Program-made: the position numbers and the translations under genes | Source: Nymphaea colorata | Lineage: Eukaryota; Streptophyta; Magnoliopsida; Nymphaeales; Nymphaeaceae | Direction: 5' to 3' | Length of the DNA: 64,000 nucleotides | NCBI RefSeq assembly: GCF_008831285.2 | Contig: NC_045144.1 | Coordinates: 22,893,716 to 22,957,715 of the forward strand | Notes under the pieces: model-generated | Databases searched by the model: none | What the model was told of the DNA's origin: nothing | Seen by the model: only the letters and a program-made list of their open reading frames with translations | Shown here: one piece after another, positions 4,634-60,368 of the stretch | Layout: each line of letters opens with the position of its first letter | Position numbering within the stretch: the first letter of the stretch is position 1

Positions 4634-5202
4634 CCCTGGGTCTCTGTCTTCAGATCGTATCCAGAAACCTCCCCTGCTCTCCTCAGGGCTTGCCTCCATT
4701 CCTTCGTCTTCGCCTTCAACTCTTCATCCTCATCGTGCTTCCTGAACGCAGCTTCGAATGGACCCTTGACATTCCTCACCTCCCGAGGCTCCACGTCGTA
4801 GAAGATGGGGAGCACCAACCTCCCGCACTCCACGATCTTGGCGATCTCCATCAGACACCATTTTGATTCAGCGTTGCCCTTGGAGAAGATGGGTATGAAG
4901 ATCTCAGAGCCTTGAATGAATCTGAACAGCTCCTCCACCTTTTTGCCCTTCTCCAAGCCCTGACTGTCTATGAAGACATTTACGCCTCGCTGCTTCAGTG
5001 CTTCGTAGAGGTGGCCGGAGAAGCCCTTCCGAGTGTCCTCCCCCCTGAAGCTCATGAACACGTCGAAATCGAACCGGGGACGCTTTGAAGACGACGGATT
5101 CAGAGGCTGTGGTTCGTCGGCAGTCTTCCTCTTCGTCATTCTCTCCCCTCGACCGAATTGCTTCTTTTCAGAAGATTGGTTTTCCTGATATCCAGTGACC
5201 AA
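4634..5202 (-). pseudogene. TNL exon 1: TIR domain
   Basis: This exon itself is open. After a basic, Ser/Pro-rich N-terminal leader the TIR domain begins at 'DVFMSFRGEDTRKGF', the canonical first TIR box. It continues through 'VNVFIDSQGLEKG' and 'SKWCLMEIAKI', which carries the conserved glutamate expected at the NADase active site, and 'VLPIFYDVEPREV'. Two Met starts are possible, at 5202 and at 5139 (beginning MTKRKTADEP). The second resembles the usual TNL leader, so the start is undecided. The exon ends in a GT donor at 4633-4632, leaving two bases of a Gly codon that exon 2 completes. Frame beyond the donor runs into a GA/TA microsatellite and is intronic. Confidence 0.88.
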
Positions 5203-35665: not shown

Positions 35666-37923
35666 CTTTTTCCTCTTTTAAGAGGCCGAGCCTCCCCATC
35701 GCCCAGAGGCCTCCCTGCTCTATTCCGCCTCACCACTTTTTTCCTCTGAAAACCACTCCTTCATGTCGTGTGTATATTTTCAAAACCAAAAGAAGCAAAC
35801 ACAAACAGGAACTTTATATGAAAAGTCGTTTTTGCCTTACAAAAAATGAATTTAGCTAAGACCGGAAAATAGACATCATCTTAAAAAACAATCACAATAA
35901 ATTTCAATTTGATCATGGCATGCCTTCTGTGTAATTAAAAGAACTGTAGTGGCACTTTCAATATTCCATGCACCGTGAACAAAGCAATATTATAAAATGC
36001 GTGTTACATGCCACTCGCTGGACTTTCTGCTGAGTTTTCTGTGCCGCAGCATCCTGCCCACTAAATGGTTTTAAATTTTCAGTGACACTTGATACGTGCT
36101 GTTTAAGATAAGCATTCTTGTCGTATCTTCTTTTGTAAAAAATTGGCATTTGGTTTGCGCTTGCGTTTCTTAACACGCAATTTTTTGTTCTAGGAATCCT
36201 TAGCCGAAAACACATGTTAAAACTAGTATCATAGGAAGTATCAATAAATTTTAAAACTAACATGAAAATGAGTAAAAATAAGATAGTGGTAAATAAAAAA
36301 TTGAACTTGTATTCATAACGATACAATTTCACAAATATTATTCAGAACATTTAAAAGTGAGCTGAGAAAAAGTTAAAACAAAAGAGAAAAAGAGAGAACT
36401 ATAAAACCTGGAACATTTTATTCATACTGAACTCCTCATGACCCAAAAGAAGTAAAACAAAAAGCGAGAAAAGGGTCGAACTTAGGTAAATAGTACAAAT
36501 CATAGAAACATTTTGGTAGTTGAAGCATATACGGCTTGGAGTAGAGAAAAGGCACAGGGAACAGCAAGGTGACTCGGACTTGGACCTAAGAATAACAGAG
36601 GTGAGAGATCTTGTAGCCAATCACCAGTAAAGAAGAATCAAGCAAAGTATCATATTCTGGTAGCTTAACTACTTGCAATAGGATTTACAGAACGACGACT
36701 TCTAACTGATGCTTCTGCAAAGGCATGCTGGAATTGTCTTCATATGTTATGAAGTGTCCTGAAAGTTGTTGATACTTTATCTGAGGAAGGATACTGCAAA
36801 ATTAATTGGTCCATGCCTATATCGTCTTGAATTGCTGAATCCTTGTAATTTAGATATTCTTGTACCGAGGCATCACCAATAAGAAACTGAGTCAATTGCC
36901 GCATGCTTGGCCTTGATTCGGGCGCAGTCTGTGACCAGAGAACGCCAAGCTTCAGCACAAGCTCTGCTTCCTCCACCACACAGCAAATTCTCGAGCTTCT
37001 TGTCCATAGCGTCCAGTATTCGTCCACCCTTCCACAGAGAGTCGACTAACTCCACCAGAATAATCTCCTCAGAGGGCCTCCCGGGCTCAAAAGGCCTCCT
37101 GCCACAGGCCACCTCTAGGACTAAGGCACCGTAAGAATACACATCCGAACTCGTCGTGGACTTGTAGGTGCGGGAGAGCTCCGGCGCCATGTACCCAAAA
37201 CTCCCAACGATGTGGGTTGTCTTTGGATTGGTCCCATGCTCATAGAGTCTGGCAAGCCCAAAATCACTCAGACTGCCATTTAGATCACCATCCAACAACA
37301 CATTACTTGCTTTAACATCTCTGTGCACAACCACTTGCTCCCATTCTTCATGAAGATACAGCAGGCCGGAAGCAATTCCCTTCAGAATATTGAACCTCTG
37401 TTCCCAACTGAGGCATCCCGCTTTCACATCAAAAAGGAAACCGTCTAGGCTCCCATTGGGCATCAATTCATAAACCAGGAGCAGGTCGTCTCCTCGTCTA
37501 CACCAACCATGCAATTGGACCAGGTTTCTGTGTCTAATCCTCCCCAAGCTCGATACTTCTGCAACAAACTCCCTCATTCCCTGTCTTGATTCATGTGATA
37601 CTTTCTTGACCGCAACCTCCATTCCGGTGCCTGGCAGAACACCTTTGTAGACACTGCCGAAACCTCCTTTCCCCAATTCATCCTTAAACCCTTGGTTGCC
37701 ATGTAGAGTTCCTTGTACGAGAACCTATGTGAGTAGTCTATCTCCCATCCTTCTATCTTTTCGGATGTGAGCTTTCGCTTCCTATAGGCCAAATAAGAAA
37801 TGCCAACTGTGATCATGAGAAACGATAGAGCCACCGACGCTACAGAAATGTTCAAGAACATGTTAGAAGACTTCCACAGAGGAGCTTCATCACTAATAGA
37901 GGGAAGGCGTGAAAGGTCCAGTT

Positions 37924-38624: not shown

Positions 38625-39229
38625 CTCAAGAGAGGGATCATACCTGCAAAATGAACAAAAATTAATACACTGCCTTAAAGGCAGTCATCCCAACTAAGTC
38701 TCTACACATGTCATGCTTCTCTCTAGGTAGAGACTTCGTCATCATATCTGCAGGATTCTTCTTTGTCTGTATCTTCTCTAACTGAATCAATTTCTGCTCA
38801 AGCACATCACGAATCCAATGATATCTGACATCAATGTGCTTGGTCCTTGAGTGGAACGCTGAATTCTTTGCCAAATGTATAGCGCTTTGACTATCACAAT
38901 GCAACACATAGGTCTTCTGACTAAGGCCTATGTCATGAAGAAAACTCTTCATCCACAACAACTCTTTACAAGCTTCAGTTGCTGCAATATATTCTGCCTC
39001 TGCAGTGGAAAGAGCAACACACTTCTTCTCCTTGCCTTTCTCCTCTCCTTCTCCTCTATGAGCAGCCACAAGGTCCCTTCTCTTTTTCCCCCAAAGAGAG
39101 TCAACGAGAGAGAGAAGTGTGAGGCGTCGTAAGAGGGAAGGGCACCATCGGGTGCCCTCTCCTTCACCCGCCCGTCACTTAAGTGACGGGCCGGGTCGGG
39201 TCCTCTTTTGAGGCTGGGCCCGACCCAAC
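38610..39229 (-). repeat. Duplicated 3' block of the copia element (RNase H end plus partial LTR)
   Basis: 38610-39023 repeats 39230-39643 with about three substitutions. This block covers the polypurine tract, the pol stop and the last 110 or so RNase H codons. 39025-39229 is a 205-bp piece from the outer part of the LTR, joined directly to the RNase H sequence at 39024. The junction lies in the shared pyrimidine-rich word 'cttcttctcc'. The resulting 135-codon ORF (39069-38662) has an RNase H C-terminus under a foreign LTR-derived start, so it is a by-product. Confidence 0.93.
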
Positions 39230-39282
39230 AAACTCCCCCTCCAGCCTCAAGAGAGGGATCATACCTGCAAAATGAACAAAAA

Positions 39283-42200
39283 TTAATACACTGCCTTAAA
39301 GGCAGTCATCCCAACTAAGTCTCTACACATGTCATGCTTCTCTCTAGGTAGAGACTTCGTCATCATATCTGCAGGATTCTTCTTTGTCTGTATCTTCTCT
39401 AACTGAATCAATTTCTGCTCAAGCACATCACGAATCCAATGATATCTGACATCAATGTGCTTGGTCCTTGAATGGAACGCTGAATTCTTCGCCAAATGTA
39501 TAGCGCTTTGACTATCACAATGCAACACATAGGTCTTCTGACTAAGGCCTATGTCATGAAGAAAACTCTTCATCCACAACAACTCTTTACAAGCTTCAGT
39601 TGCTGCAATATATTCTGCCTCTGTAGTGGAAAGAGCAACACACTTTTGCAACCTGGACTGCCATGATACAGCTCCCCCTGCAAAAGTAAAAACATAACCA
39701 GAAAGAGACTTCCTAGAGTTCAAGTCACCTGCCATGTCTGCATCAACAAATCCTTGTATCTCTGGATTAGATTCACCAAAACATAAACAGTAAGTACAAG
39801 TACTTTTCAGATACCTTAGGATCCACTTCACTGCTGCCCAATGCTCTTTGCCTGGATTTGACAAGAACCTGCTAACTACACCAACTGCATAAGCCAAGTC
39901 TGGGCGTGTGCAAACCATAGCATACATGAGACTCCCTACTGCAGAGGCATATGGAACATTCTCCATTCTTTCTTTCTCATCTGCTGAAAAAGGACATTGT
40001 TCATTTCCCAATTTAAAATGTGCTGCTAAAGGTGTACTTACAGTTTTGACATCTTTCATGTTGAACTTGCTAAGCACCTTCTCAATGTATTTCTCTTGTG
40101 ATAACCACAACCTCTTGGTCTTCCTATCACGAGCAATCCTCATGCCTAACAATTGTTGTGATGGCCCCAAGTCTTTCATATCAAAGAACTTGCCCATATC
40201 GATCTTCAATTGGCTAATCAATTGACAATCCTGTCCAACAATAAGCATGTCATCTACATATAACAATAAGATAATGAAGCTACCTGATGAGAACTCTCTG
40301 ATGTAGACACAATGATCTACAGCTGACCTGCGATACTTTTGATTTATCATAAATGCATCAAATTTCTTGTACCACTGTCTAGGTGCTTGTTTAAGTCCAT
40401 ACAAGTTTTTCTTCAACTTACAAACCATGTGTTTCTTCCTGGCAATCACAAAACCTTCTGGTTGTGTCATGTAGATTTCTTCCTCTAGATCTCCATGAAG
40501 AAAAGCAGTTTTTACATCTAACTGCTCCAACTCCAAGTCTAGACAAGCCACCAAACCAAGTATTACCCTAATAGATGACATTTTAACAAAAGGAGAAAAA
40601 ATTTCATCAAAATCAATACCTCTTTCCTGCTTAAAACCTTTCACCACTAACCGAGCTTTGTATCTCAACTTGCCTTGACCTTCATTTTTAAGCTTGTAAA
40701 CCCACTTGTTCTGCAACACTTTCTTACCTTTTGGTAACTCTACCAAATCAAAAGTGTGATTCTTGTATAAAGAATTCATCTCATCCTTCATAGCTTTAAT
40801 CCATTCATCTTTATGCACATCATCTAGCACCTCTGCATAGCATTGTGGCTCTCCACTATCTGTAAACATAATATATTCATCAGTAGAATATCTAGTAGAT
40901 GATATACGTGTTCTTTTACCTCTACCCAATTGCTCCTCAATTGGCTCTGAATGCGAAGGAAGCTCCCCCTCCAACTCATGCTCATAATCAGTTTGAGTCT
41001 CCATAGGGCTGCCATCTGTATACTGCTCATCTGTCTCTCTTTCTTCTTCCTCTACATCTTCATCAGTCTCACCATGCTCAGATGAAAGTTCTTCAGGTTC
41101 TGCATAGGTTGGCTCATGAACACCACTAGCATTCACACCTGACTTCGTGTCTCCCATGACATCTTCAATAGTCTGATCCTCTCTGAAGACAACATCACGA
41201 CTCCTGTAGATTTTGTCATTCTTTGGATCCCATGACCTGTAACCAAATTCATCATCTGCATAACCAAGAAATATCAGAGGAATAGCTTTATCATCTAGTT
41301 TGGTCCTATGTTCTTTAGGTACATGCATAAAAGCTTTGCAACCAAAAACTCTGAGGTGATCGTACTTAACCTCTTCATCTGACCAAACTCTCTGTGGAAT
41401 GTCTCCATCTAGAGGCACTGAAGGAGACCTGTTTATTAAATAAACTGCAGTACGCATTGCCTCTGCCCAAAAATACTTAGACAACTTAGAGCTAGATAAC
41501 AAACTTCTAACTCTCTCGATTATTGTTCTATTCATCCTTTCTGCAACTCCATTATGCTGTGGAGTATAAGGAACTGTCTTTTCATGTCTAATACCATGCT
41601 TTAAACAATAATCTCGTAAAGAAGATGCTATATACTCACCACCATTGTCTGTACGCAGTCTCTTCATCTTCTTACCAGTCTCGCGCTCAACCGCTGCATG
41701 AAAAGTCATGAAGATGCTACTTACTTCACTTTTGCTTTTCATTGTAAAGGCCCACACCTTCCTAGATGCATCATCAATAAATGTAACAAAATAGGATGCT
41801 CCACCTTTAGATGTCACATTTATAGGTCCACATACATCTGAATAAACTAAATCTAAAACATGTTTAGTTTTTGAAGAGCGCTTTTTCTGAAAAGAAACTC
41901 GATGCAACTTACCAACCAAACAATGATCACATGGAGATATCTGTGCACCATCTGCCTTTGGTAACAAATTCTTCTTGGTGAGCAAGTCGATTCCTCTTTG
42001 ACTCATGTGACCTAACCTCTTATGCCACAAATCTGACGAAGTACCACCAGTAACTGCATTGACATCCACACTACTGATTCGAGACTTCATCCCATACAAA
42101 GAGCCAAATCTGTCACCTCTAGCCAACACTAGTGCCCCCTTGGTAAGTTTCCAACCTGTCTGACTAAACGAAGTACAATATCCATCTTCACTTAGTCTTC

Positions 42201-43293
42201 CTGCAGAAATCAAATTCATTCTCAAGTCTGGAACATGTCTCACATCTCTCAAAGTCAACTTGCATCCTGTGCTCGTCTGAATGCAAACATCTCCTATCCC
42301 AACAATCTTCGAAGTGTCACTGTTGCCCATGTGAACTACTCCAAAATCACCTGCTCTGTAGGATAAGAATAACTCCCTACATGGTGTGGCATGATATGAT
42401 GCCCCTGTATCTAAAATCCATGTAGAATCACCATTCTGAACTGTAAGACAATCATTTTCCTCAGATAAAAATAACACTACCTCATCATCTGAAGCAACTG
42501 CAGTGTACTCTTTTGGCTTCACATTCTCTTGAATCTTCTTTTTCTGCTCTTTTTCTTCTTTCCATTTTCTGCAATCAATCTTCTTGTGCCCTGGAATACC
42601 ACAGTGAAAGCATTTACCTGTCATCTTTGGTCTTGATTTGGACCTGGATTTTGATCTGTCTTGCCATTTGTTACGGTTCTTCTGTCTGCCCCTGTCTCCC
42701 ATCACTAACACTTGCGAGCTACCAGTACCAAGAGACTTTCTCCTTGTTTCTTCATTTAAAATGCTGCTGGTTACATGCTTCATCGTAAGCACACCATCTG
42801 GAGCGGAGTTGCTCAAAGAAACAACTAAAGTCTCCCAACTGTCGGGAAGAGAACTGAGCAACAAGAGTGCCTGTAACTCATCATCTAATATCATTTTCAT
42901 GGCTGACAACTGATTGATTATGCTCTGCACTTCATTCAAATGCTCTGACACTGGTTTTCCCTCTCTAAGTTTCAGATTTACCAATTGCCTAATCAAGAAA
43001 GCCTTGTTCCCAGCTGTTTTCCTCTCGTAAAGATCATGCAACTTCTGCCATAACGACTTCGCGCTCGTCTCTGCGGATACCAAATGAAAAACACAGTCAT
43101 CTAACCATTGTTTGATGGTGCCAATGGTTTTCCTGTCCAATAACTTTCATTTTTCATCTGTTATATTCGCTGGCTTTTGGTTCTCAATTGGTGCATACAG
43201 GTCTTTACAATACAGCAAATCTTCCATTTTCGCTTTCCATATAGTCCAATTGTTTCCATTTAAAGAGACCATTCTAGTAGGGGTCGACTCCAT
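39283..43293 (-). pseudogene. Copia gag-pol polyprotein, one premature stop in gag
   Basis: The start is ATG at 43293 ('MESTPTRMVSLNGNNWTIW'), typical of Tnt1-type gag. Codon 49 (43149-43147) is TGA where the family has Trp. After it the frame is open for 1285 codons. Domains by position in that open part: gag UBN2 (1-140), CCHC knuckle 'CFHCGIPGHKKIDC' (177-190), aspartic protease 'ILDTGAS' (about 242-248), pre-integrase 'LWHKRLGHM' (371-379), and integrase D-D-E ('YSDVCGP', 'RTDNGGEY', 'NGVAERMN'). RT with 'LDVKTAFLHG' and 'YVDDMLIV' follows, then RNase H 'ALSTTEAEYIAATEA' to the end. The polyprotein makes the capsid and replication enzymes for retrotransposition. This copy could supply pol only by readthrough or internal initiation. 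Confidence 0.93.
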
Positions 43294-43371: not shown

Positions 43372-44051
43372 TGTTATAGTCGTGTCCCCCAACAAGAATG
43401 CTTCAACAACAATAAAATAGGGCAAACCACCACAAAACTGCTGAAAAACGAAATTACAGGGCAGCGTGCATAAGATCGAGATTCCAACACCAATGTTGCA
43501 GCAATATATATCAAAATATATGCTAGAGATGCAAGAAAAAGGAGACACCAATTTACGTGGAAAAACCCCAATAATGGGGTAAAAAACCACGGGCAAGAGA
43601 GACTTTCTATATATCAAGAAAGGGAGCCAAATACACGAGCAACAATATCCCTACTGTTTTAAGAAAGACAGTGAACTCAAGAGAGCAATAACAATCTCTT
43701 ATACGAATGAAAGAAAGAGCCCCAAAGATTCAAGAAAGAAATCACCCAATGAAGACTCCCTTCATTTTCTCTTTCTTCTTTGTCTTTCCTCTTTCTTCTT
43801 GGCGTGCCAATCGACCCACGCACCTTGCTGCGATTTCTCCTTCTTCTCCTCCTTGCCTTTCTCCTCTCCTTCTCCTCTATGAGCAGCCACAAGGTCCCTT
43901 CTCTTTTTCCCCCAAAGAGAGTCAACGAGAGAGAGAAGTGTGAGGCGTCGTAAGAGGGAAGGGCACCATCGGGTGCCCTCTCCTTCACCCGCCCGTCACT
44001 TAAGTGACGGGCCGGGTCGGGTCCTCTTTTGAGGCTGGACCCGACCCAACA
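43372..44051 (-). repeat. 5' LTR of the copia element
   Basis: 680 bp, nearly identical to 37929-38609. On the element's own strand it begins TGTTGGGTCGGGTCC, with a palindromic 'cgtcacttaagtgacg' nearby that may be part of its promoter. Confidence 0.96.
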
Positions 44052-44056
44052 CTTGT
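44052..44056. repeat. Target-site duplication of the copia element, right
   Basis: 'cttgt', identical to 37924-37928. Confidence 0.95.
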
Positions 44057-44929
44057 TCGCCGATCGTGAAGCTCCAAGCCAAGATATAGTGCTTGCTGAA
44101 TAGCTTTTGCTTACCAGAAGAGAAGCCAACATACATGTGTTCGAGCAGAATAGAGGACAGGTCAATGGAATATGATATTAGCGAGCGGGTAGGCTTGAGT
44201 GGGTGGGGCACTGGAGCTATGGTGACATTCTGCTTCCCCATCCCGTCATATTCAATCCATGCTTGGATGGGCGTCTGGCTGTCCAGAAGCACCCTTTCTT
44301 TCTTATCAAGCTCTGTATAATAAGCAGCAGATTCGGAGGTATTGGAGATCACACCATCGACGTCGATGCCCACATGGTTTCCATCTCTGTCATTCAAATC
44401 TACTTGTTCAACTGTGTCGAATTCAACTGCAAATATATGATTGTTTGGGTTTCCGTTGTTCGACTGGTTGGCGAAGCCGAGGAAGGGGCCTCCAGAAGCA
44501 GAGGAGAAGTTGATGGAGGGTGCCAAGACGAAGGCGAAAACGTGTGCTGAACGATTGAGTTGTCGTAGCTGAAGGACCCTTTTTGAATTGGAGAATGGCC
44601 GGGTAGAACGCCTGTCCTATGATGCCTGGAAGATTCGTGGTGTGTTGACCGTTAGTCAGTTGAAGAGCCCCCGTGCTGGTAACAGTTGCAAAGCCATATA
44701 AGCTCAAGTCCGATCGCTGGAAGCGTTTGAAGACAAAGATGCTATGAGTGCAGCCTCAGGTGATTTGCAGATATGAGCAAGAATATGAAGAAGGAAGATA
44801 AGGAGAAACCCTGACAGCTGAAGCGCCATGATAAAGATAAAGAAGAGGGCTGAGAAACATGCACAAGAACTGCCAGCACTTCCACCGTTTTGCTTTCATA
44901 TGTATCGATAGAGGAGGGAGAAGTCACGG

Positions 44930-47216
44930 ATGTTTTGGGGAAAAATAATCGGGATTTGACATGTAAGACATTTAAACTTTTTGAAAAAGATTATATTTCA
45001 TTTTCACTTATTAAGCAAAATTCTTAATTTCATCTGGATTTAATTTTTGGACCTTAGGCTCAAAACAAACTTTTGGATTCGTAGTCCAATTCACCACTAT
45101 TCAATCCAAAATGAATCTTCTCATGTCAAGTTCGAACGCAAGATTAAAATTCAAAATCTAACTTTAGATGCAAGATTCAAATCCTAATCCAATTCTTGGA
45201 TTCAAATTAAATCCAAAACCAAATTCTAAATCCAAATCAATAATTTTAAACTTGAAATTCAAAGCTGAGATCAAAACAATAAAATTTGATATTATAAGCA
45301 CCACACGCAAGTACCTTCCATTTGCGCAAAGATGTGCTTTTGAACTTAAACTACTCACTTGAACACTTCGGTGACTAATCGAACCAAATCCGGATCTAAA
45401 ATGAGCCTGGAATCTCTAAAATAGAGTCAGCCCTATTTGTAACAAAAACCATTTTCTATACACATAAAAAAATGATTTTTATACTTGTTTTATGAGCAGA
45501 CCCTTTGGAGGCTAATGAAGCAAAATCCACCCTTTATTGGTTCAAATGAGACAATAAGGATGGCATTCCCCCCCGCCCCCCCCACCTCCCAAAAAAAAAA
45601 AATGAACGCAGCATGGCAGGGCCGCTTGTGCTGGCACGCATCACGCACAAATGCGGCGAGCTAGAGCGTGGCAGGGCCGCTTGTGCTGGCACGCATCACG
45701 CACAAATGCGGCGAGCTAGGGCCTGCACGCTACACAGGCGCTCTTCTTAACTAAAAGTTGCTCCTTAGGGTGGCGGTTTTGGGCCTGTTGGTTAGCCATT
45801 AGCTTTGCCCACACCCCAAATAGGTATTTGGAGGGCTAAGGGTCAATCCCACCTAGTCAAAACCTATTTAAAAAAATTAAAAATCATCCAAAAATACTTG
45901 AAATTTGCATAAAAATATTATTAAATTAAAAAAATCAAATTTTGAGTTTTGACTCTAAAACTCTCTAAAAGTATCTCACAATCTTCTCTCTTAAGCATAA
46001 ACTAACCACTCAAGAACCTCTAGTGCTTTCTCTTTTAAAAATTAGAGTTTTTCTCTAGCTCTTTCTCATTTAAAAATTTGAATTTTTCTCTAACTTTTTC
46101 TTTCTATTTCTCTCTTCTTCTCTTTTTCTTTTTCTTTTTCTCTAACATAGGAGCAAGTTTCTCCAAGTTTCAACTCCTCAACTGTGCACCAGAAGATTTT
46201 TTGGAGGAATACCTTCGTCATCTTCAAGCTTCACCCAAGGTAACCTAGGATCAGCCGAAGAAGAAAACTCATTTCTTTTGTCTTATTTTTTTTTTGTCTC
46301 CCCTTGCCCCCTCCCAACAACCGTGCAAGAGAGCTTTCAAAATTTTTTATCCAGAGTCGAGAGCTACTCTTGAGTGCACCGAGAGTATGAGTAAGACGAA
46401 ATAAATTCAAATTTTTCTTTTATTTTTAAAATAGACTTGCTTTATTCATCGTTTATGTTTGAGATGATGTTCATGCATGATCAATTAATTTTTTAATTAA
46501 TAGACAAATAAACGGTAAGAATGAGTGTTTGGGTTGTGATTTCTTCATTATTATGTGGATTTTGAGGTTAAGATTTGTCGAAGCCCAAAACCCTTTCACG
46601 AATGTGTACATGTTAAAATGCATATTCATGACATTCTCACGTTCAGTTTCTCTCTTAATCACCCGATTATAACCTCAATGAGTGTTTTCTTACGTTGCTC
46701 TCCAATTCATGTGTGTTTAATTTTCTTTCACACCGAATTGTGGGAGAAACAGATTTTCTTGTAATAAATAAAATAATTATGTTTTATGCTCACGTATAAA
46801 AATATTTAGAACCATGTTTTCTAAAAAAAATTTGAAAGCAAAACCCTCTTCGTGAGGCCTTGTATGAGCCCAATTTTTATCGGGCTTACATAGAAAAATT
46901 GAAGTCAGACATTTTCGAAATTATTTCTTGACCCACAAAAACATATGCGTATATACATATTTTGTACATATACATGCACATAATTGTTTCTCTCTTTGTA
47001 CTTTAACATATTCCTTTACAAAATTTTTGTTTACGTATACATATAAATGAATATGTCTCTTTCTAAAAGCTTATTTTTCTCTTTCTCTTTAAAGTCTCCC
47101 TTTCTCTCTCCAAAATTTCTCTGTCTCTAAAATATATATCTCTCTCCAAAACCTCTCTCTTTTTCTCAAATTTTCTTCTCCCTTTTCATTAGAGTTAATA
47201 TTTTTCTTTCACCAGC

Positions 47217-47260
<44 letters not shown>

Positions 47261-48920
47261 TTTTTCTCTTCAAAACATTTTACTTTATGATGTTCAAAAT
47301 CTCTTTCTCTTTCTCGTTCCCTCTATTCCTCTTGGATTAAAGTCTTTTCTCTTTTCTATTATTTCGAATATTTTTCTCCCAAGATCTAAGGTTTTAATTT
47401 CTCATTTGTCGACTTCATCAAGATTAAAATTCAAGTAATGACCTAATATTAAAATCGTGCTTGATGGTCTACAACTTCATTCATCTCCTTTCATAAAAAT
47501 ATGTGTCAATTATATAAATAAAAATAGAAAAGCTAAATGTATATGATAGAATGATTGTTTTAGATAAATGTTATGGTAGGAATAAGTGATTTGTTTCTAA
47601 TTATCTAAACAAATGCATTCATACATTCACATTCACACATGAAAATCACGAATGATCATACGCACCTCTCTAAAAAAATTTAAGAAAGATGACATGGAGC
47701 TTTACCTAGGTAATAACCAAATTATAGCATTAAATCGACTTAAAAATAGTGATAATCAAAGGTTTTTAAATGATATTTATGAAGATTCCTCAAATCAAAG
47801 TGTTTTATACTCTTAAATGATTCTTCAAAACTTTTTCAAAAATTTGAAACATTAAATCTTCAATAATTTTTCAAACACTACGCCACATGAAAATATGTTT
47901 AAGCGAAACGAATTACATCAAGAATAAACATAGCTCTTAGATTGTTTACCCATAGTAAAAGCATCGAAAACGGTCAATCACCACACCGACGTACGAGTCC
48001 ATTTCTCTTAAAAAAAAATAAAAATTTTCTGAAGCACTCCAAAAACCAAAATAGATTTTGGAGATGCGAACAACAATGTAAGATTTAATATACAAGACAA
48101 TCCAAGGATATAACATACAAGGTAATGAGGTTGATTGATAATTATTTTATGATTTTATAAATTTAATTTGCTCAACATTTAAAGCTACTGTATAACCATT
48201 TTGTTAGATCTAGCCCAACAATTAAACTTCATTCTACGTAGAACTGAAACAAAAGAGGAAGAAGGGACCAAGTCTTGAGGGAAGAGGCAGCAACTTAAGA
48301 CTTAATTTACACAAGCGCCACCTACATATTTTTCAAACTGTATATCTTACCAAAAAAAGGAAAACCAAAAAAAGAAAAAATGTAACGTACGTAGGTAAGT
48401 AGCTTTAGGCATTATAAGGAAATAACTTTCTAATTAAGCCTAGCATCAGACCGCATATCGTAACTACATGTCTATTTCTAAAAACTATTGTACTTAACCT
48501 GATTTTTTATTAATAAAAAAAAACAAAGTAAATACTCCATGGTACCTAGCTAGAAAATTCATTGGTTCTTTCCTATACTTAATTCTTTTAAATTTGGGAA
48601 AAAATGAATTTTTAAGATTGATAGCATTAAATAATGAAAAAAAATATTCATGTTTTCGATTTTCTTATCATTGTGAAGAACCTAATTTTACTGTAATCCT
48701 TAAACTTAATTTATATTTAAAATTGCAATAACGTTATAGTTATATTTAATTTTCTTCAGGACATGTTTTTCATTTTTTTTTTTTCGTAATTTCATGTTCC
48801 TCCATTTGCTTTTTTAAAACCACATAAAAACTAACGAAAAATATGGATTATAAATTGCAAAATGATGTTTTATTGTATTGTGATACTTGTTAATTATGAG
48901 CAACAGACATGAGGTAACTA
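44930..48920. other. Non-coding, retroelement-like sequence
   Basis: No gene was recognised. 45060-45260 is 'aatccaaatc' monotony as in the candidate LTR at 19-23 kb. 45960-46300 and 47040-47210 are pyrimidine-rich (CTCT, TTTCTC) stretches with a possible donor 'caaggtaacc' near 46237, reminiscent of a gypsy LTR R/U5 region. This is inference only. An (AT)n tract lies at 47219-47251. Confidence 0.5.
45612..45722. repeat. 55-bp tandem duplication (2 copies), GC-rich
   Basis: 'tggcagggccgcttgtgctgg' starts at 45614 and 45669, and each copy runs to 'gcggcgagctag'. It stands out by base composition from its AT-rich surroundings. Confidence 0.93.
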
Positions 48921-48973
48921 TAAGGGTGCGTTTGATGCATCGGGTGAATTCCGATTTTTCGGAAAAAACCGTA

Positions 48974-49084
48974 CGGGCGAGTGAAATTTCACTAATTTCA
49001 CTCGCCCGACCTAAAGATGCATCAAACGGGGTGAATTTCACCCCGTTTAATGCGTAACGTGAGCGGGTGAAATTCCACCCGCTC
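48974..49084. repeat. Three consecutive hairpin-forming inverted repeats
   Basis: 48974-49008 has a perfect 15-base stem with a 5-base loop. 49024-49048 has a perfect 12-base stem with a 1-base loop. 49061-49084 is a near-perfect palindrome. All centre on variants of 'ggtgaaatttcacc' and lie just inside the left TIR of the element at 48924. Confidence 0.93.
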
Positions 49085-50150
49085 AAAAGTCCGCGCTCCG
49101 AGCTCAGACTTTCGAGGAGGTGGAATTTCACCTGCTCAACGCCCTTCCCCCACGCTCGACACCCTTCCCCCCCGCTCAACCTGTAAACGCCCCCTTTCTC
49201 CTCCTCCTCGCATTCTAGCATATCTCCGTCCTCACTGGCAGAGAAAATGGACGCAGTGGAGAGGAAGGGCCAGAGCTCCCACCATCGCCGCTCCGCTAGT
49301 TTGCCAATGCCATAGTCGCTGCTCCTCCACTGGTCCATCGTTCGTCATCGCCACATGTAAGGGTTTCCTGTAAACGCCCAAAGTTTTTTTTTGTGTTTCG
49401 CTATTGCTCTTGCTGATGTCTTTCTCTTGCTCTCGATTTTTTCCTCTCTCATCCATTTTCTCCTCACGGGCTCCTCCTCCCTCGCAGTCGAGCACTCCTC
49501 CTCCCTTGCAGTGGAGCCTTTGTCCATTTCTCACCAGCAGGGAAGAGGGTTGCAGTAGGCGTGCAGGCCAGAGCTCCCACCATCGTCACATTAAACAGCC
49601 GGTTCACCATTGCCACAGGTATCTCTCGTGTTGTCGTTGTGTTCCTTTCAAAAACGCCCAAAAATCTCCCACTCACGCCACAAGTTTCTCTCTTGCTCTG
49701 CCTGTCAACTATCCTTTCGCTTGTTTCTGTTATGAGGAAAATCTCTGTGTTCTGTCCTCATTTTGCTTCAATCTCATAGGACTTGGCTGATTTGAGATCA
49801 TTTGTATATTCTGTTCTCCTCGACCACAGATATTTGTCTTTGATTATCTGAACTGGAAGCATATAAGGACAGAGATCTTCTTCCATGCTTGAGCCTTTGT
49901 CTGGTTGTCGCCAGTTGCATTTCTCGTGGAACATTTTCATGATCATTTTCAAAAACAGCAGACAACTCAGATACATAGTTAATACATTTAGTGTTGCACT
50001 TAGTTTGAGTATCCTTCTACAAGTTTTACAAGCTTCTCAAAAGGAAAAATTGCTATTTTTTTGTTTTGTTTCAATTGAATAGAGGATTAAAATTTGAGCA
50101 AACCTTCTGTTGATTTTGTGACTCATCCACTGCTATTGGAACTATGGCAG

Positions 50151-50343
50151 GGTTTTTTGAAACAAGAAAGGGATGCTGTGGAACAGGAGTTGTGGAGACT
50201 GAATCTTGTGCAATCCAAAGTCTATTGGAACATGCTCCAATGCCAGTGAGTATGTATTCTGAGATTCAGTTCACCCAACACAAGCAGCAAACCAGAAGCT
50301 AGCTGATGCCCTCTTGCTCCAAGACATTCCCCTCATTGGATGA
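50151..50343 (+). pseudogene. Captured GDSL esterase/lipase C-terminal exon
   Basis: After an acceptor-like 'tatggcag' (50143-50150) the plus strand reads 'FFETRKGCCGTGVVETES'. Following a one-step frame change it reads 'LCNPKSIGTCSNASEYVF', then a stop (TGA, 50260-50262), 'DSVHPTQAANQKLADALL' and TGA at 50341. This is the final exon of a plant GDSL-type serine esterase/lipase. It has the CCGTG-x-x-E segment, the 'C..AS.YVFWD..HPT' block with the catalytic Asp and His, and a natural C-terminus. Trp before the catalytic Asp is replaced by the stop. The nucleophile Ser exon is not visible. It lies inside a TIR element, so it looks like a transduplicated host fragment that has since decayed. Confidence 0.75.
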
Positions 50344-50825
50344 GAAATCTGCGCAGTCCTGTTTCTCTTCAAACAAAATGAGAAAGAAGAGACCTCCTTG
50401 TTGCACCAATAGATTCTGCTATAAGAACCCTCCTTGCAGCTGTTGCTGTTTCATTTTATGAGTGTTATATATGTTTGAGTGCTGAAGAAATAAAACTTTT
50501 GGCATATTGGTGTAGAGTTTATAGAGTGTTTCAGTTACCAAATGAAAAATGCAATATTATTTTGGTTTAGATATTCTGGTTTTATATAAATGTAAAGTCT
50601 CCTAAATTTTCTATCCTGTGCATCAAACATGGTTAAATTTACTAGGTTAAATTCTTCATTGTGCATCAAACATAGTTAAAATTACCAGGTTAAATTCTTT
50701 CTGTGCATCAAACATGACTTCAAATCGGAAGAGGGTTAAATTTCATCTTGAAATTTTTTTTAGAAAAATTTACCATGGTAAATTTACCACGTTAAATTCT
50801 TCCTTGTGCATCAAACACACCCTAA

Positions 50826-52489
50826 GGAACAACTATTGGTCAGGCAGAGACGGTGGTGAAAAAGAAATGAGGGCTTGGGCTGCAAATCAGTGGAGGCTGT
50901 GAAGGTTGAAAGGCTGTAGGACTATCTAGAGGCAGCCGTAGTTTACAACACATAGTTGGGTCAGAAGATGCTGATTTTGACCCAGAAGTTTGTCTTGATC
51001 AAATTCAAGTGTTTTTTCCTTTTGGCGAAAATAAAGTTTAGGCAATGCACGGCATTGTTTGCCAATTATGTATTGTCGTCCATGCCGCGGTCTACAAAGT
51101 CGATTTTTTTCTTTTCATTTTTCATTTTTAATGATGTCTCAACATTAATTATTTTCTCACTTTAAATCATTAAAAAATCAAATGCCAATATTTTAAAATA
51201 CAGTGTTATAAGAGAAACTGAATATATATATATATATATATATATATAAGTTGTATGATGATACACATATGCAGATCGGCGTTCCAGCTTCATTGGAAAT
51301 GCATTCAAGACGAAGCCCACCTTCTCTTCCAACAAAGCCCCATTAGAATAGATATACCTGTTTCTGCAAATGCATCTATTACCATGTATACAATTTGGTT
51401 TCCACCCGATCTTCACCAACTCGTGTTAGAAGCCACAAGTCTTCTTTCGCACCGTGTCCTATAAAGAAACGCCCCAAATGTCACTAGAAGTTCGAAAACC
51501 CAAATAATTCCCTTGAAGCTTCCTGCCTCCACCAAATCCCAAGGAAAACGTAACACATACGGCCTACTGGACCATTCAATCGGGCAAGGAGAGACTGGGG
51601 AGAGGAATGCTGACCGTCGGATTCAGAGAAGGGGGAAAGTTTTAGACAGAAGGGGTGGAGAAGAATTTAGTTGCAGCCAATGGCGTCGCCTGATCTTCCT
51701 TCTTGTCCCTTGCAAGGAAAATGGAGGCGCTCGTGGCGGACTCATTAGTTTCTCGTTCCCACTCTCAACTTCAACAACCATTGAAAGGTTTGCCCATTTT
51801 TCTTTCGACTTGTTTTATCTCTACTTTTCCTAAAGTCTTATTTTCCATTAATAAGCATGTAAATATAATATATTAAATATGACATTGGAACAATTCCATT
51901 ACGGGGTTTTGACGAGATCAGGAATCTAGAATTCTAGAACTAAAATTCTCATTTTCTATTAAATGAGAATTCTATTATCAAATAAAGAATTTTGATTTTG
52001 ATATTATAAACTCATTCTTAAAAAATCAAAATTCTAGTAAGAAGCGGATTATCATTTCAGAATTTTAGATTTTTTTTTTTTCACCTCTCCTTGGGGCACA
52101 TGTCCTGATGATGAATTTAGTTCATCAGTTACAAAATTTCATTTCATGTTTATCAAACACAAAAAACACTAGAAGTGAAATTTTTATTCCAATTCCAGTC
52201 TAAGGCGGTATTTTGTTGTAGAATCAAACTTGAAGGCCATCAAATACACACACCCTAATGCAATAAACACTTGTTTGGAAAGCCTTAGCCTGTGTTTGAA
52301 AACCCTGGTATTCCAAGGTAAAGGTGGAACTTTGATTCAAATTTCATAAAAATCTCCAGCCAATAAACAAATATGGGACAATTCATGTGCGGGGGAGTCT
52401 TTCCGCAGCTCTGGAAATCCAGTATCGTCATTAATGCCAGGAATATTCATGGAAGGCGCATGTATACATTTTTGCTGTTTCATTTTGAC
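50826..52489. other. Non-coding; possible isolated first exon near 51.7 kb
   Basis: (AT)n lies at 51221-51249. At 51720 an ATG opens a short frame ('MEALVADSLVSRSHS') in locally GC-richer sequence and runs toward a GT near 51789. No downstream exon could be linked, so I do not call a gene. The rest is AT-rich with no recognised feature. Confidence 0.45.
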
Positions 52490-53295
52490 GGGGAGTAATA
52501 TTATTCACGTCCACCGAAGACTTGAGATTGAGAGAGACCCCACACCCACTGAGCCACCCTTCCCCATTTGACCTCATCAACATCCGCGTCTACCAAAATT
52601 AGATCCTTTGTCACGGGCCGAGTTTCTCCAGCCCGCGCGGCGCCAAAGGCGTTCCCAAAGCCTTCGGCCAGCCGTCTCTCTCTTAAGATAGCGGAAGCAT
52701 TCATCTTTTCTTCGAAACTGTGGACTAGACGAGGAGTGCTAAGCACTCGGCACACCATCACTCAGGTTTATCCCATTGTCGATCATCGGCAAGCCGTGGC
52801 CATGAGGTCCTGTCAGAACTTCGCCATTCCTCCAAGTGCCTATCTACATCCAAACGAAATCTGGGTGGAGGTAGACTTCCCTTAGGAGGAAGTCCCCCGC
52901 CGAAGCCAGTTGACGACTATATGTCATTAAGTAAGGCGGCCATCGCCCTACTCGACGATGAGCATTCACTTGCTCACCCCCACGTGACTCTACGCGGTTG
53001 TGGAACGCAGCATATGCGCCCACTGGGGGAATTGCCCTTAACCTATGCGCACCCCTCTTGTGTATCCAAACACTACGCGTGGGGAACCCATTGGATTCCC
53101 CAACGACGGACTTGCACTTCCAAAGGGACTGCTGCTCTTGATGCATTTAAACGCCTTGTCACTGCAACACCGCGCTGCACATTCCACGTGCATTGCTTTC
53201 TGCTTGACTCGGCGACCGATTGATCCCACATGCCTTCCAACTATGCCTAAGCTGGCCAAGCAGCATCACCTTTTACTGGCTTGGCCGGGCTAGAC
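52490..53295. other. GC-rich unidentified island
   Basis: About 800 bp of markedly higher GC than its surroundings, with overlapping open frames of 60-105 codons on both strands (for example + 52568-52885, + 52921-53223, - 52501-52761). No frame shows a domain I recognise, and the simultaneous openness on both strands is what GC-rich sequence gives by chance. It could be a gene fragment or part of a transposon. Confidence 0.4.
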
Positions 53296-53339
53296 ACAGT
53301 CGACCGGCAACATCGTTGAAAGAGGGTATAAATTAATTA

Positions 53340-53700
53340 CTTGCTGCTAAATAAATCTGGTGGTAAGATCCCCAACCCAAGCCTTCCACATCTCTTAAGA
53401 GTTCCCCACTTCAGCTTCATAAGATTTGTTGATCTTTGTTTCTCTGATTTTATCATGTATTCATAATGATATTTGGACTGGGTTGCAAAAGTACATATTA
53501 AATCCAATAACCAGGTCCACCACTGCAATTGGAATTAGTGGAGAGTACATAACCAGCCCATGTGCTCTACAAGTCCATGATTGTTGCTAAATAAATCCGG
53601 AAAAATTCCCCAACCACAAACTCCTACATCACATACACGTCCTCTTTCTCAAATTTGTCGGATTTCTCATTGAATTGTGTAAAAAGTTTGGATGCATGTT
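53340..53700. repeat. Dispersed repeat family, copies 1 and 2 (partial)
   Basis: 'tgctaaataaatc(t/c)gg' begins near 53344 and again near 53584. The first copy matches 55428-55545 (same 'gagttcccc' and 'tctctgattt' blocks) and continues with the 'ttggactgggttgcaaaa' block seen at about 54735. Confidence 0.75.
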
Positions 53701-53763
53701 TTTTTTTTTTCAAAATCCAAAATTTCATTTAGACAACCCAAGTTTCATTAGTTTTTTTTTTCA

Positions 53764-53771
53764 TTTAGGAA
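53764..53771. repeat. 8-bp target-site duplication, left (hAT MITE)
   Basis: 'tttaggaa', identical to 54364-54371. Confidence 0.9.
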
Positions 53772-54363
53772 TAAGGCTGGGCATCGGGCCGGGCCGGGCC
53801 GACCCGTTAAAAATGTAAAAAACAAGGCCTGACATTATAAACGGGCCAGCCCGAGGCCCGGCCCGTTTAGAAACGAGCCGGGCCGGGCCTACCTAATATC
53901 GGGCCTCGAGCTTCAACTTATGCCCGAGGCCCGGCCCGGCCGGGCCCGATTATTAACGGGCCGGGCCGGGCTTTTTCGGGTTAAAGGAGTTGAAGAACAT
54001 GGGGATAGAAACAAGTGAGCTTGGCACTGGCGACCCATATAAACGGAGGCTTAAGTTGTAGCGGTTTTCAGATGACAGGGGTGGAGAGATATAGGGGAAT
54101 GGTCTTGTTCTGGCAGACCTCGGGCAATGCGCGTCGCTTGGCTACCTCAACATTCAGTTTTTTGAAAAAAAAAAATAATGATGTCGGGCTTCTCGGGCCG
54201 CCGACGATCACAACGGCAGGCCCGAGCCCGACCCGTTAAATACCGGGCCGGGCTGAGCCCGTTAACCTCAGCCCGAAAATCATTATTTCAAGGCCCGGGC
54301 TCAGGCCCGTAACGGGCTGGGTACCGGATACCCGTCGGTGGCCCAGCCCGTTGCCCAGACTTA
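53772..54363. mobile_element. hAT-type non-autonomous element (MITE), 592 bp
   Basis: Terminal inverted repeats of about 24 bp start TAAGGCTGGGCATCGG on the left and, as reverse complement, TAAGTCTGGGCAACGG on the right, with three mismatches. Both ends are GC-rich, with multiple inverted 'cgggccgggc' words that can form a long foldback. It is flanked by a perfect 8-bp duplication, the hAT hallmark. The interior has no transposase, and the 74-codon frame at 54015 is not recognisable. Confidence 0.88.
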
Positions 54364-54371
54364 TTTAGGAA
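54364..54371. repeat. 8-bp target-site duplication, right (hAT MITE)
   Basis: 'tttaggaa', identical to 53764-53771. Confidence 0.9.
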
Positions 54372-54649
54372 GGGGCTTGAGCCTCTTCAAGGTATTTGAA
54401 TAAACTAAAGCCAAAAGCACAGTTGTGGAACTAATTTAATCCAAACCAACCAAAAGAACACATAGGCCAAGATCATTGATAGACCAAGAGTATTTATATA
54501 AACTAAGTAAAAAAGAGGCAGTTGTGAAGGACTTAGTCTATAGTATCCACCAGTAAAAAAAAAAAAGAGACTAGAACGTCATTTTCTTTACGATACATAC
54601 AAACTAAAGCAAAAAAAGATAGTTACGGAATGAATTTAATCCTTAGTAT

Positions 54650-55045
54650 ATTTGATTTCATTACCTAAAAACAAGTCAGATATATGACATTGAGTCCAAA
54701 TTTATTTCAATCTTAGGTGGACTTTAGAGTCCACTTTAGACTCGGTTGCAAAAATACATATTGAATCCAATGGCGAGATCCAAACCTTGTCATAATATAA
54801 AGATTGGCATAATAAACTCACTCATTTGTGTGTGTGTCTGTGTGTGTATGTGTGCATATATATATATATATACATATATATGTTAGAGACAGGCATAGAT
54901 GAGTATGCAAATTGATCAAATCAATTTATGAACGATAGGTCCCAAAAAGGTGCAGAAATTTTCAGGTGGAAGGAAGAAAAGAAAAAAAAAAAGAACTAAA
55001 AACAAAGATTAGATTTCCGACAATTACAATTGACTTGTAGACTTC
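54650..55045. repeat. Dispersed repeat family, copy 3
   Basis: From 'gacattgag' (about 54685) through 'aagattggcataa', a TG/TA microsatellite (54827-54885), 'tatgcaaattgatcaaatc' and 'acaattacaattgactt' (to about 55045), this matches 55555-55820 in the same order. A shared internal (TG)n tract is variable between copies. Confidence 0.85.
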
Positions 55046-55424
55046 ATCCCTGCCCTCATAAAAATCAAGTTGAGAGAATGGGTCCCTCTTCACGCGCACT
55101 TGTTGGGGGAAGTAATGCAGCCTTCAATTCGGTTACTCATTCTTCACTGGCCCCAGCCGTTGGCTTTCACGCTATTCTTTGGATTCCATGCACCATTCTT
55201 CCTCTCAGCTGTACTAGTTAAATTCAGATTCTGCTTCTTTAACTAAATTCCAGATGTTTCTGTCGTTCACATGAATGTTTCCATCAGTAGCAGTGTGATT
55301 TATTTTCTCTTCAATCTGGTGAAACATATTTATAATACTGGAGCAGATGATGAACATACTGAATCATACGTTTTTTATCAAGTTGTGCCAAAGAAGAAAT
55401 TAAATTAGTGAATTTACACACTGC
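55046..55424. other. Non-coding spacer
   Basis: No gene was recognised. It separates two copies of the dispersed repeat. Confidence 0.5.
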
Positions 55425-57480: not shown

Positions 57481-60164
57481 GCTTGCGTTTCTTAACACGC
57501 AGTTTTTTGTTCTAGGAATCATTAGCCGAAAACACATGTTAAAACTAGTATCAAAGGAAGTATCAATAAATTTAAAAACTAACATGAAAATGAGTAGAAG
57601 AAAGATAGTGGTTAATGAAAATTTGAACTTATATTCATAACAACACAGTTTCACAAATGTGATTGATAACATCTAAAACGAGCTGAGAAAAAGATAAAAC
57701 AATGTAAAAGAAAAAGAGAGAATCAACTATGAAACCTTGAACAATTTATTCATACTGAACTCCTCATGACCCAAAAGAAGTAAAACAAAAAGCGAGAAAA
57801 CGATCGAACTTAGTTAAGTAGTACAAATCATATAAACATTTTGGTAGGCGAAGCCTGTACGGCTTGGAGTAAGAGAAACGGCACAGGGAACAGCAACGTG
57901 ACTGGGACTGGGACACAAGAATGACAGACGTGAGAGATCTTGTAGCCAATTACCAGTCAAGAAGAATCAAGCGAAGTATCATATTCTGCTAGCTTAACAA
58001 CTCGCAATAGGATTTACAGAACGATGACTTCTAACTGATGCTTCTGCAAAGGCATGCTGGAGTTGTCTTCATATGTTATGATCAGCCTGAGTGTCTGAAG
58101 TTGTTGATGACCTTATCTGAGGAAGGATTTTGGTCCATGCCTATATCGTCTTGAATTACTGAATCCTTGTAATTTAGATATTCTTGTACGGAGGCATCGC
58201 CATTAAGAAACTGAGTCAATTGCCGCATGCTTGGCCTTGATTCTGGCGCATTCTGTGAGCAGAGAACGCCAAGCTTCAGCACAAGCTCTGCTTCCTCCAC
58301 CACATAGCAATTCTCGAGCTTCTTGTCCATAGCGTCCAGTATTCGTCCACCCTTCCACAGAGAGTCGACTAACTCAACCAGAATAATCTCCTCAGAGGGC
58401 CTCCCGGGCTCAAAAGGCCTCCTGCCACAGGCCACCTCTAGGAGTAAGGCACCATAAGAATACACATCCGAACTCGTCGTGGACTTGTAGGTGCGGGAGA
58501 GCTCCGGCGCCATGTACCCAAAACTCCCAACGATGTGGGTTGTCTTTGGATTTGTCTCATGCTCATAGAGTCTGGCAAGCCCAAAATCACTCAGCCTGCC
58601 ATTTAGATCACCATCCAACAACACGTTACTTGCTTTAACATCTCTGTGCACAACCACTTGCTCCCATTCTTCATGAAGATACAGCAGGCCGGAAGCAATT
58701 CCCTTCAGAATATTGAACCTCTGTTCCCAACTGAGGCATCCCGCTTTCACATCAAAAAGGAAACCGTCTAGGCTCCCATTGGGCATCAATTCATAAACCA
58801 GGAGCAGGTCGTCTCCTCGTCTACACCAACCATGCAATTGGACCAGGTTTCTGTGTCTCATCCTCCCCAAGCTCGACACTTCTGCAACAAACTCCCTCAT
58901 TCCCTGTCTTGATTCATGTGATACTTTCTTGACCGCAACCTCTATTCCGGTGCCTGGCAGAACACCTTTGTAGACACTGCCGAAACCTCCTTTGCCCAAT
59001 TCATCCTTGAAACCCTTGGTTGCCCTGTAGAGTTCCTTGTACGAGAACCTATGTGGGTAGTCTATCTCCCATCCTTCTATCTTTTCGGATGTGAGCTTTC
59101 GCTTCCTATAGGCCAAAAAAAAAATGCCAGCTGTGATAATGAGAAACGATAGAGCCACCGATGCTACGGAAATGTTCAAGAACAACTTAGAAGACTTCCA
59201 CACAGGAGCTTCATCACTAATAGAGGGAAGGCTTGAAAGGTCCAGTTCTGGTTCGTCCATCTTGAAGCTCCATCCCAAAATATAGTGCTTGCTAACCAGC
59301 CTTTGTGTACCAGAAGAGAAGCCAACATACATGTGTTCGAGCAGAATAGAAGACAGGTCAATGGAATATGATATTAGCGAGCGGGTAGGCTTGAGTGGGT
59401 GGGACACTGGAGCTATGGTGACATTCAGCTGCTTCATCTGTCCATCATATTCTATCCATGCCTGAATGGGCGTCAGGCTGTCTAGAACCACCACTTCCAT
59501 CTTGCCATAGTCTGTATAGTACGCAGCCGATTCGGAGACACTGGAGTTCACACCATTGACATCGATGCCCACATGGTTTCCATCTATGTCATCCAAATGT
59601 GCTTGTTGAACTGTGTCGAATTCAACAGCAAATATATGATTGGTTGGATTTCCGTTGTTCGACTCGTTGAAGAGGCCAAGGTAAGGCCCTCCAGTGGCAT
59701 CGGAGAAGTTGGTGGAGGGCGAAACTACGAAGGCGAAGCCATGGCCACCTTGCTCCTGGAACTCCGATTCGATTTCAAACACGAAATGAGTACTGAACGA
59801 TTGGGTTGTCCTAGCAACGGGAGATTTTTTGAATTGAAGAATTGAAGGGTAGAACGCATGGCCTTTGATGGCTGGATTTGTGCTATGATGACAGTTAGTC
59901 AGGCAAAGGGCCCCCGTCTGAGTTATGGTTGCGGAGTCTGATAAGCTCAAGTCCGACTGCTGGAAGCGGTTTAAGACAAAGATGCTACTGAGTGCAGCCA
60001 CAGGTGATCGGCAGATATGAGCAACAATATGAAGGAAGATCAGGAGAAACCTTGACAGCCGAAGCGCCATGATAAGGAAGAGGGCTGAGAAACATGCACA
60101 AAAATTAGCAGCGCATTCGTTTCCACCGTTTTGCTCTTTCATGTATCGATAGAGGAGGGAGAAG
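57481..60164. repeat. Segmental duplication, copy B (contains the intact LecRK)
   Basis: Collinear with 36159-44923 apart from the copia insertion and small indels. Outside these limits the two loci do not match by eye. Confidence 0.85.
58082..60070 (-). CDS. L-type lectin receptor kinase (LecRK), intact
   Basis: A 662-residue single-exon plasma-membrane receptor kinase that couples an extracellular lectin-like domain to a cytoplasmic Ser/Thr kinase. Plant LecRKs act in immunity and stress or developmental sensing; the ligand here is unknown. Signal peptide 1-26 (MALRLSRFLLIFLHIV); legume-lectin domain about 28-272, with 'FAVEFDT' (148-153) and 'NHVGIDVNG' (165-173) supplying metal-site residues; juxtamembrane 273-296; membrane helix about 297-320 then YRKRK; kinase about 354-625. 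The kinase has '[12 protein letters not shown]', Lys381, Glu397, HRD 475-477 and DFG 495-497, so all catalytic residues are present. '[14 protein letters not shown]' resembles the clade IV type. The start at 60070 was chosen because it opens the signal peptide and is conserved in the duplicate. An in-frame extension to 60310 lies in unrelated transposon-like sequence. Confidence 0.95.
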   Translation of the reverse strand: MALRLSRFLLIFLHIVAHICRSPVAALSSIFVLNRFQQSDLSLSDSATITQTGALCLTNCHHSTNPAIKGHAFYPSILQFKKSPVARTTQSFSTHFVFEIESEFQEQGGHGFAFVVSPSTNFSDATGGPYLGLFNESNNGNPTNHIFAVEFDTVQQAHLDDIDGNHVGIDVNGVNSSVSESAAYYTDYGKMEVVVLDSLTPIQAWIEYDGQMKQLNVTIAPVSHPLKPTRSLISYSIDLSSILLEHMYVGFSSGTQRLVSKHYILGWSFKMDEPELDLSSLPSISDEAPVWKSSKLFLNISVASVALSFLIITAGIFFLAYRKRKLTSEKIEGWEIDYPHRFSYKELYRATKGFKDELGKGGFGSVYKGVLPGTGIEVAVKKVSHESRQGMREFVAEVSSLGRMRHRNLVQLHGWCRRGDDLLLVYELMPNGSLDGFLFDVKAGCLSWEQRFNILKGIASGLLYLHEEWEQVVVHRDVKASNVLLDGDLNGRLSDFGLARLYEHETNPKTTHIVGSFGYMAPELSRTYKSTTSSDVYSYGALLLEVACGRRPFEPGRPSEEIILVELVDSLWKGGRILDAMDKKLENCYVVEEAELVLKLGVLCSQNAPESRPSMRQLTQFLNGDASVQEYLNYKDSVIQDDIGMDQNPSSDKVINNFRHSG

Positions 60165-60368
60165 ACGCCAGGCCTGGGCATGGGGTCAGCCGTGGCCCTT
60201 TTACTGAACGCCATTAATGTCCAAAATTTGGACCACATCAGAACACTACCTGGCCCAGCTATTAAGAGGACGGGCCCTGCCAGATATCGGGCATAGTCAA
60301 CCACGTCCAAGGCCCGAACCGCCCCATTTTTTAACTGCTAAACAGAATGGGCTGGGCCGAGCCGAGCT
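60165..60368. mobile_element. hAT-like remnant in the LecRK upstream region
   Basis: Starts 'gcctgggcatggggtca' and ends near 'gggctgggccgagccg', GC-rich words like those of the hAT MITE at 53772. Similarity to the 5' flank of LecRK copy A stops at exactly 60164, about 95 bp above the start codon. The upstream sequence of this gene has therefore been replaced or interrupted here. No clear target duplication was found. Confidence 0.4.

Follow-up and report, generated by a model that had tools for sequence, protein, structure and literature searches.

A non-autonomous PIF/Harbinger-type element of Nymphaea colorata carrying the last exon of a GDSL esterase/lipase gene

Within the window analysed here (a stretch of 64,000 nucleotides of the Nymphaea colorata genome, C7:22893716-22957715), a 1,899-bp element at 48924-50822 is best explained as being of the Pack-PIF type, i.e. 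as a non-autonomous PIF/Harbinger element which inserted at TAA, whose interior is a mosaic containing a fragment matching a locus on C9 and a fragment of a GDSL gene, and which does not encode the end of the GDSL protein. We assign this reading a probability of roughly 0.93. The first-pass annotation of the window, made from the sequence alone, had described an element with terminal inverted repeats (TIRs) in this position; the observation is confirmed, and its core interpretation, a TIR element of PIF/Harbinger type with a captured last exon of a GDSL gene, is supported by the results below. The features of the element are collected in Table 1.

Table 1. Features of the element and its insertion site, in window coordinates
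Feature	Position	Strand	Remarks
Target-site duplication TAA, left	48921..48923	.	Single TAA in three related empty sites
Left terminal inverted repeat, GGGTGCGTTTGATGCA, 16 bp	48924..48939	+	15/16 against the right one
Left end region, element 1-248 (248 bp)	48924..49171	+	79% identical to A1 left end
GC-rich body, element 249-1023	49172..49946	+	Shared in parts with other elements
Second captured fragment (putative), 95 bp, element 1024-1118	49947..50041	+	94/95 identical to C9:21375745-21375839
27-bp joint	50042..50068	+	Rightward of about 50051, seemingly alignable with the GDSL intron (by eye)
Captured GDSL fragment, element 1146-1670	50069..50593	+	93.5% identical to C6:4863792-4864325
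Last GDSL exon	50151..50343	+	CAG splice acceptor; Lipase_GDSL in donor exon
Right end region, element 1671-1899 (229 bp)	50594..50822	+	91% identical to A1 right end
Right terminal inverted repeat, TGCATCAAACACACCC	50807..50822	-	15/16 complementary to the left one
Target-site duplication TAA, right	50823..50825	.	Single TAA in empty sites

Ends, insertion site and family of the element

The inverted ends and the TAA duplications are as the first-pass annotation had stated, with 15 of the 16 terminal positions complementary and TAA on both sides. When the 64-kb window was scanned with the terminal 16-mer, allowing up to two substitutions, two sites were found, and both are ends of the element. 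The statement that the element has no transposase was likewise borne out, as no such frame was seen within 48924-50822; the element, without a transposase of its own, is a non-autonomous member only.

Three related loci show the insertion site in its empty state. The locus at C1:4374915-4375420 matches the joined flanks at 95% identity straight across the insertion point, with one TAA, while C4:10212204-10212669 and C4:8055441-8055911 match them at 76-77%, with one TAA each; no element sequence was detected by alignment in any of the three. The same flank search returned three further rows that apparently span the joint (one on C8 and two on C4; 72-73%). Because related loci read through the insertion point with a single TAA, a chance origin of the ends is excluded, and the window element displays the 3-bp TAA/TTA duplication characteristic of PIF/Harbinger insertions. 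Identical TAA or TTA triplets were found at both sides in 11 of the 17 elements examined, and with one extra G in two more (L015 and L021); among the other four, L010 and L018 have the left end only, L012 has no recognised left end, and L024 shows no match. For one of the other copies bearing the GDSL fragment, L013 (C6:21271963-21274485), the joined flanks are spanned, from base 8 or lower to base 434 or higher, by at least 33 of 42 rows, which were not aligned by hand. This copy sits inside a dispersed repeat, presumably the 3' end of a LINE.

Since the copy at C7:13314115-13315884 (L009) shares its flanks with the window element (95-98% identity over 7.7 kb, in pieces), it arose by segmental duplication rather than by a second insertion; it lacks element positions 41-168. 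The duplication, which includes the element, relates positions 46007-55135 of the window to C7:13311155-13318884, with 95-98% identity in the main pieces. Elsewhere in the window, the minus strand at 38662-43140 contains a polyprotein frame of 1,285 aa (39283-43140), which we take to be that of a Copia-type retrotransposon, and a shorter second copy of its C-terminal part (38662-39069). The frame is flanked by a kinase piece (36873-37676) and by a lectin-domain piece (43996-44526) resembling the long frame of a lectin receptor kinase at 58082-60310, and it looks as if it had been inserted into a paralogue of the latter. Pieces of what is presumably a resistance gene of the TIR-NBS-LRR type are located at 2085-5202, also on the minus strand; a gene of this type would point to a dicot.

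The family of the element could be identified from its end regions. The element A1 (L022 and L049), which they match, is 4,406 bp long, lies on C1 with TAA on both sides, and contains a Myb_DNA-bind_3 frame (7.6e-14) and a DDE_Tnp_4 piece (3.3e-7), in addition to a second DDE_Tnp_4 piece that scored below the cut-off (0.001). A further relative, A2 (L050 and L023), of which the left tip could not be recognised, contains a DDE_Tnp_4 frame (1.8e-15). The right end region contains four copies of TGTGCATCAAACA, the last of them within the terminal repeat. In a search of the 408-Mb genome, in which the 40 best of 808 candidates were scored, so that the family size is a lower bound, 34 right-end matches were listed apart from the window copy and its segmental duplicate. 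Of these 34, 9 have a DDE_Tnp_4 match on their own strand at a distance of 1.1-1.5 kb, while about 0.004 would be expected per site. The ends are thus shared with elements coding for a DDE_Tnp_4 transposase and a Myb/SANT ORF1, as is typical of PIF/Harbinger, and because the end regions match an element with both Myb_DNA-bind_3 and DDE_Tnp_4, the window element is a non-autonomous PIF/Harbinger element. As to the proposed test of whether its TIRs match an autonomous element, the ends match those of the transposase-bearing A1, but no intact transposase of this family was seen; that of A1 lies in separate frames, between which introns are possible.

The mosaic interior and its coding state

The body of the element is GC-rich initially, and is common to elements L010, L011, L012, L019 and L020. 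Weak, repetitive relatives (68-82% identity, order not kept) of element positions 275-739 are present in L060, and of positions 275-662 in L059, in both cases with the left end region on one side and the transposase on the other, which suggests that positions 275-739 are probably native transposon sequence. Positions 740-1023 are common to L009-L012, L020 and L054, and in part to L052, a locus on C2 in which no ends were recognised. With 150 of 307 DDE_Tnp_4 candidates scored, no DDE_Tnp_4 match was listed within 6 kb of 15 of the 17 body matches. In the first-pass annotation, the GC-rich part at 49.1-49.7 kb had been regarded as possible further captured sequence. The relatives upstream of transposases in two elements argue weakly, and for the most part only, against a capture from the host, and this part looks mainly native. 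Judging from the match to C9, further capture is to be found elsewhere in the element, namely at 49947-50041, a fragment that had been missed. L011 contains a longer part of this C9 locus (1946-2242 and 2468-2742 of L051). The 4 kb examined around the C9 stretch showed no element ends, and the locus is therefore taken as a donor.

The GDSL fragment is a 525-bp piece that runs from the end of the last intron through the last exon into the 3' flank. The donor gene, which the first-pass annotation had proposed to look for, has a counterpart in a donor-like locus on C6, 93.5% identical over the fragment, which has an FGDS exon (in L061), predicted middle and last exons (in L016) with Lipase_GDSL matches at 1.6e-8 and 6.1e-6, respectively, and one further exon-like frame (2494-2850) without a Pfam match. 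A fragment of a host gene with a donor-like locus elsewhere is therefore enclosed between the ends, as in Pack-TYPE elements. An origin as a processed pseudogene or retrogene was rejected, as the intron end and the 3' flank are retained. It should be noted that the downstream flank differs from the C6 gene by about 10% (27-30 of 286-296 positions) in four copies of the 2.5-kb group described below, against an exon divergence of 1.5-3.6% in seven copies; the true donor may therefore have been a relative of the C6 gene that is now lost. A comparison of exon and non-coding divergence from the C6 gene, relevant to selection on the fragment, was not used as evidence, because p reached 0.01 in L013 alone and was at least 0.089 in the other six copies.

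The predicted splice acceptor and last exon were both recovered, and the acceptor is intact in the window copy. The natural stop reported for this exon is indeed present (TGA at 50341-50343), but it is out of reach, being located beyond a 1-bp deletion near 50201 and a premature stop at 50260-50262, where TGG has become TGA. The change of the donor TGG to TGA is found in all of the seven copies that span the site (L010 ends before it), and one G is missing in the window copy (W), L009 and L010. Given the shared premature TGA and the deletion in the window copy, the end of the GDSL protein is not encoded, and, as read from their sequences, none of the seven TGA-bearing copies could code for the C-terminal part of the GDSL protein in the frame of the donor.

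Copies of the GDSL fragment and exchange between elements

Other copies sharing the fragment had also been called for, and eight element-borne copies are now known (W, L009, L010, L013, L014, L015, L017 and L018); the only other genomic match found is one gene (all 15 candidates scored in one search). Because flanks are shared not only by W and L009, but also by L017 and L018 (99.5% identity over 1,823 bp), the eight copies represent six insertion events. Both ends are present in six of the eight, the right end not being found in L010 and L018. The copies lie on several chromosomes (C7, C6, C4, C1, C11 and C14), so that the fragment has spread with the element to several sites, as Pack-TYPE fragments do.

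Two groups of copies can be distinguished: the window group, composed of W, L009 and L010, and a 2.5-kb group, composed of L013, L014, L015, L017 and the truncated L018. The latter contains a longer GDSL stretch (donor positions 3330-3885 and 4013 to 4304-4314; in L018 only 3330-3806) and an antisense piece matching C2:559951-560305 at 90-93%. This stretch of C2 (L055, 1552-1906) is a source-like locus for the antisense piece of five elements, and its short open frame has no significant Pfam or PDB match; among the frames tried in the C2 and C9 loci, none had a Pfam match over the cut-off.

One may ask whether the two groups go back to separate captures, in which each of two element lineages took up its own, overlapping GDSL stretch from one unseen relative of the C6 gene that was perhaps already broken. 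Their breakpoints differ on the left (donor position 3293 in the window group, 3330 in the other) as well as on the right (3826 and 4313, respectively), their left halves are different, and a gene other than that on C6 may have been the donor, all of which would be in line with two captures. We nevertheless consider this unlikely, in view of the nonsense codon common to all seven copies that span it, of the lack of any other genomic copy in the search, and of 16 alignment columns in which W and L009 agree with the majority of the other group and differ from the known gene (L010, being too short, was left out of this alignment). Five of the 16 fall within one 7-column cluster, and therefore perhaps reflect one event; in four columns the other group agrees with the gene, and in one column W and L009 agree with the gene against that group. 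The 16 shared columns and the common nonsense codon favour a single capture, after which the two groups were trimmed differently: 37 bp more were kept on the left in the window group, and the other group reaches about 490 donor bases further to the right.

The least expected feature is the presence of one GDSL module on two unlike left halves, one bearing the C9 piece (window group) and the other A1-like and with the C2 piece (2.5-kb group). W and L013 are 23% different over element positions 1-151, and no alignment of the left halves of the two groups is possible beyond about position 257, which points to recombination between elements. Tentatively, and with slightly less confidence than an even chance would warrant, we suggest that captured modules pass between PIF lineages by recombination, the family acting as a shuffling pool in which fragments from unlinked loci on C6, C9 and C2 are brought together in new combinations. 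Two further observations were considered in this context. When W is compared with four copies of the 2.5-kb group, the right ends differ by 12-16% but the GDSL pieces by no more than 2.5-3.7% (Fisher p of 5e-6 or less over all sites, and of 2e-4 or less outside CpG-like sites); a like contrast is obtained when L013 of that group is compared with L014 or L017 (1.0-1.6% versus 5.6-6.0%), so that it is explained by regional rate differences and was rejected as support for exchange. The C9 piece is identical in W and L011, the bodies of which differ by 7% (p 0.004; 0.055 outside CpG-like sites), and this identity was not counted as support either.

Possible role and comparison with known systems

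The sequence of events that we favour is the following. The GDSL piece would have been acquired as DNA by an ancestor of the eight copies, because intron and 3' flank are kept, and would have lost its frame early; later, it may have been joined to a different left half via recombination between elements. The element itself inserted at TAA, with duplication of these 3 bp, presumably after being moved in trans by the transposase of its family. The GDSL piece appears to be a passenger with no protein function.

There is little probability that the fragment has instead been retained because it is active, for instance by giving rise to small RNAs directed at the GDSL gene or by supplying genes into which it inserts with an alternative last exon. 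Its splice acceptor is kept and it is present in eight genomic copies; moreover, a report on maize (PMC11390486) describes an unrelated RNAi drive system, not a gene capture, in which a GDSL lipase is silenced by hairpin siRNAs. Nevertheless, the frame has decayed, the copies examined carry the fragment in the sense of the element, and no locus examined has both orientations, so that no hairpin was seen. Finally, an ordinary GDSL pseudogene with fortuitous inverted repeats, which the frameshift and premature stop of the exon might suggest, is refuted for practical purposes by the empty sites and by the ends common to copies at other places, and the similarity to the gene stops inside both element ends, on the right at 50593, 229 bp short of the terminus; an extension past the TIRs was the outcome that the first-pass annotation had named as fatal to its reading.

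Annotators should be aware that the GDSL 'exons' of these elements are transposon cargo.

Pack-MULEs carry gene fragments with introns between their TIRs, with several donors per element, and MULEs have longer TIRs and duplications of about 9 bp. The window element differs from them in its 16-bp TIRs and 3-bp TAA, where a Pack-MULE would have a duplication of about 9 bp. According to the 2008 grapevine study (PMC2528002), capture is reported less often for the PIF/Harbinger superfamily than for MULEs. It has, however, already been published for PIF elements (grapevine, 2008; maize and rice, 2022); the window element is a new example, and the existing understanding of gene capture is unchanged by it. 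Its value lies in the fact that a donor-like gene and empty sites can be studied in the same genome as relatives with transposase sequences and several stages of the mosaic. The fusion of neighbouring insertions is discussed as a capture mechanism in a 2026 review (PMC13317346), and the present system could be used to test this route of capture by TIR elements against template switching and recombination.

According to the same grapevine study, which concerns PIF elements that had acquired exons and introns of their host, members of Pifvine-3 carry host exon and intron sequence that is sometimes common to several copies, as is the case here (PMC2528002). There, the captured sequence apparently sits in a long 5' region of elements also carrying PIF coding regions, whereas the carriers of the captured GDSL sequence described here have no transposase. 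The Pack-PIF elements of maize and rice (Gisby and Catoni 2022; PMC8903248) are likewise non-autonomous and of PIF/Harbinger type, with 15-nt TIRs and mostly TTA/TAA duplications, and contain, in nested subgroups, small internal pieces from more than one gene. The example given there, maize cluster 18, has average lengths of 402 and 535 bp, with pieces of 163 and 58 bp; the present elements, in contrast, are 1.8-2.5 kb long, carry an intron-exon-flank piece of 0.5-1 kb, and have transposase-bearing relatives in the same genome.
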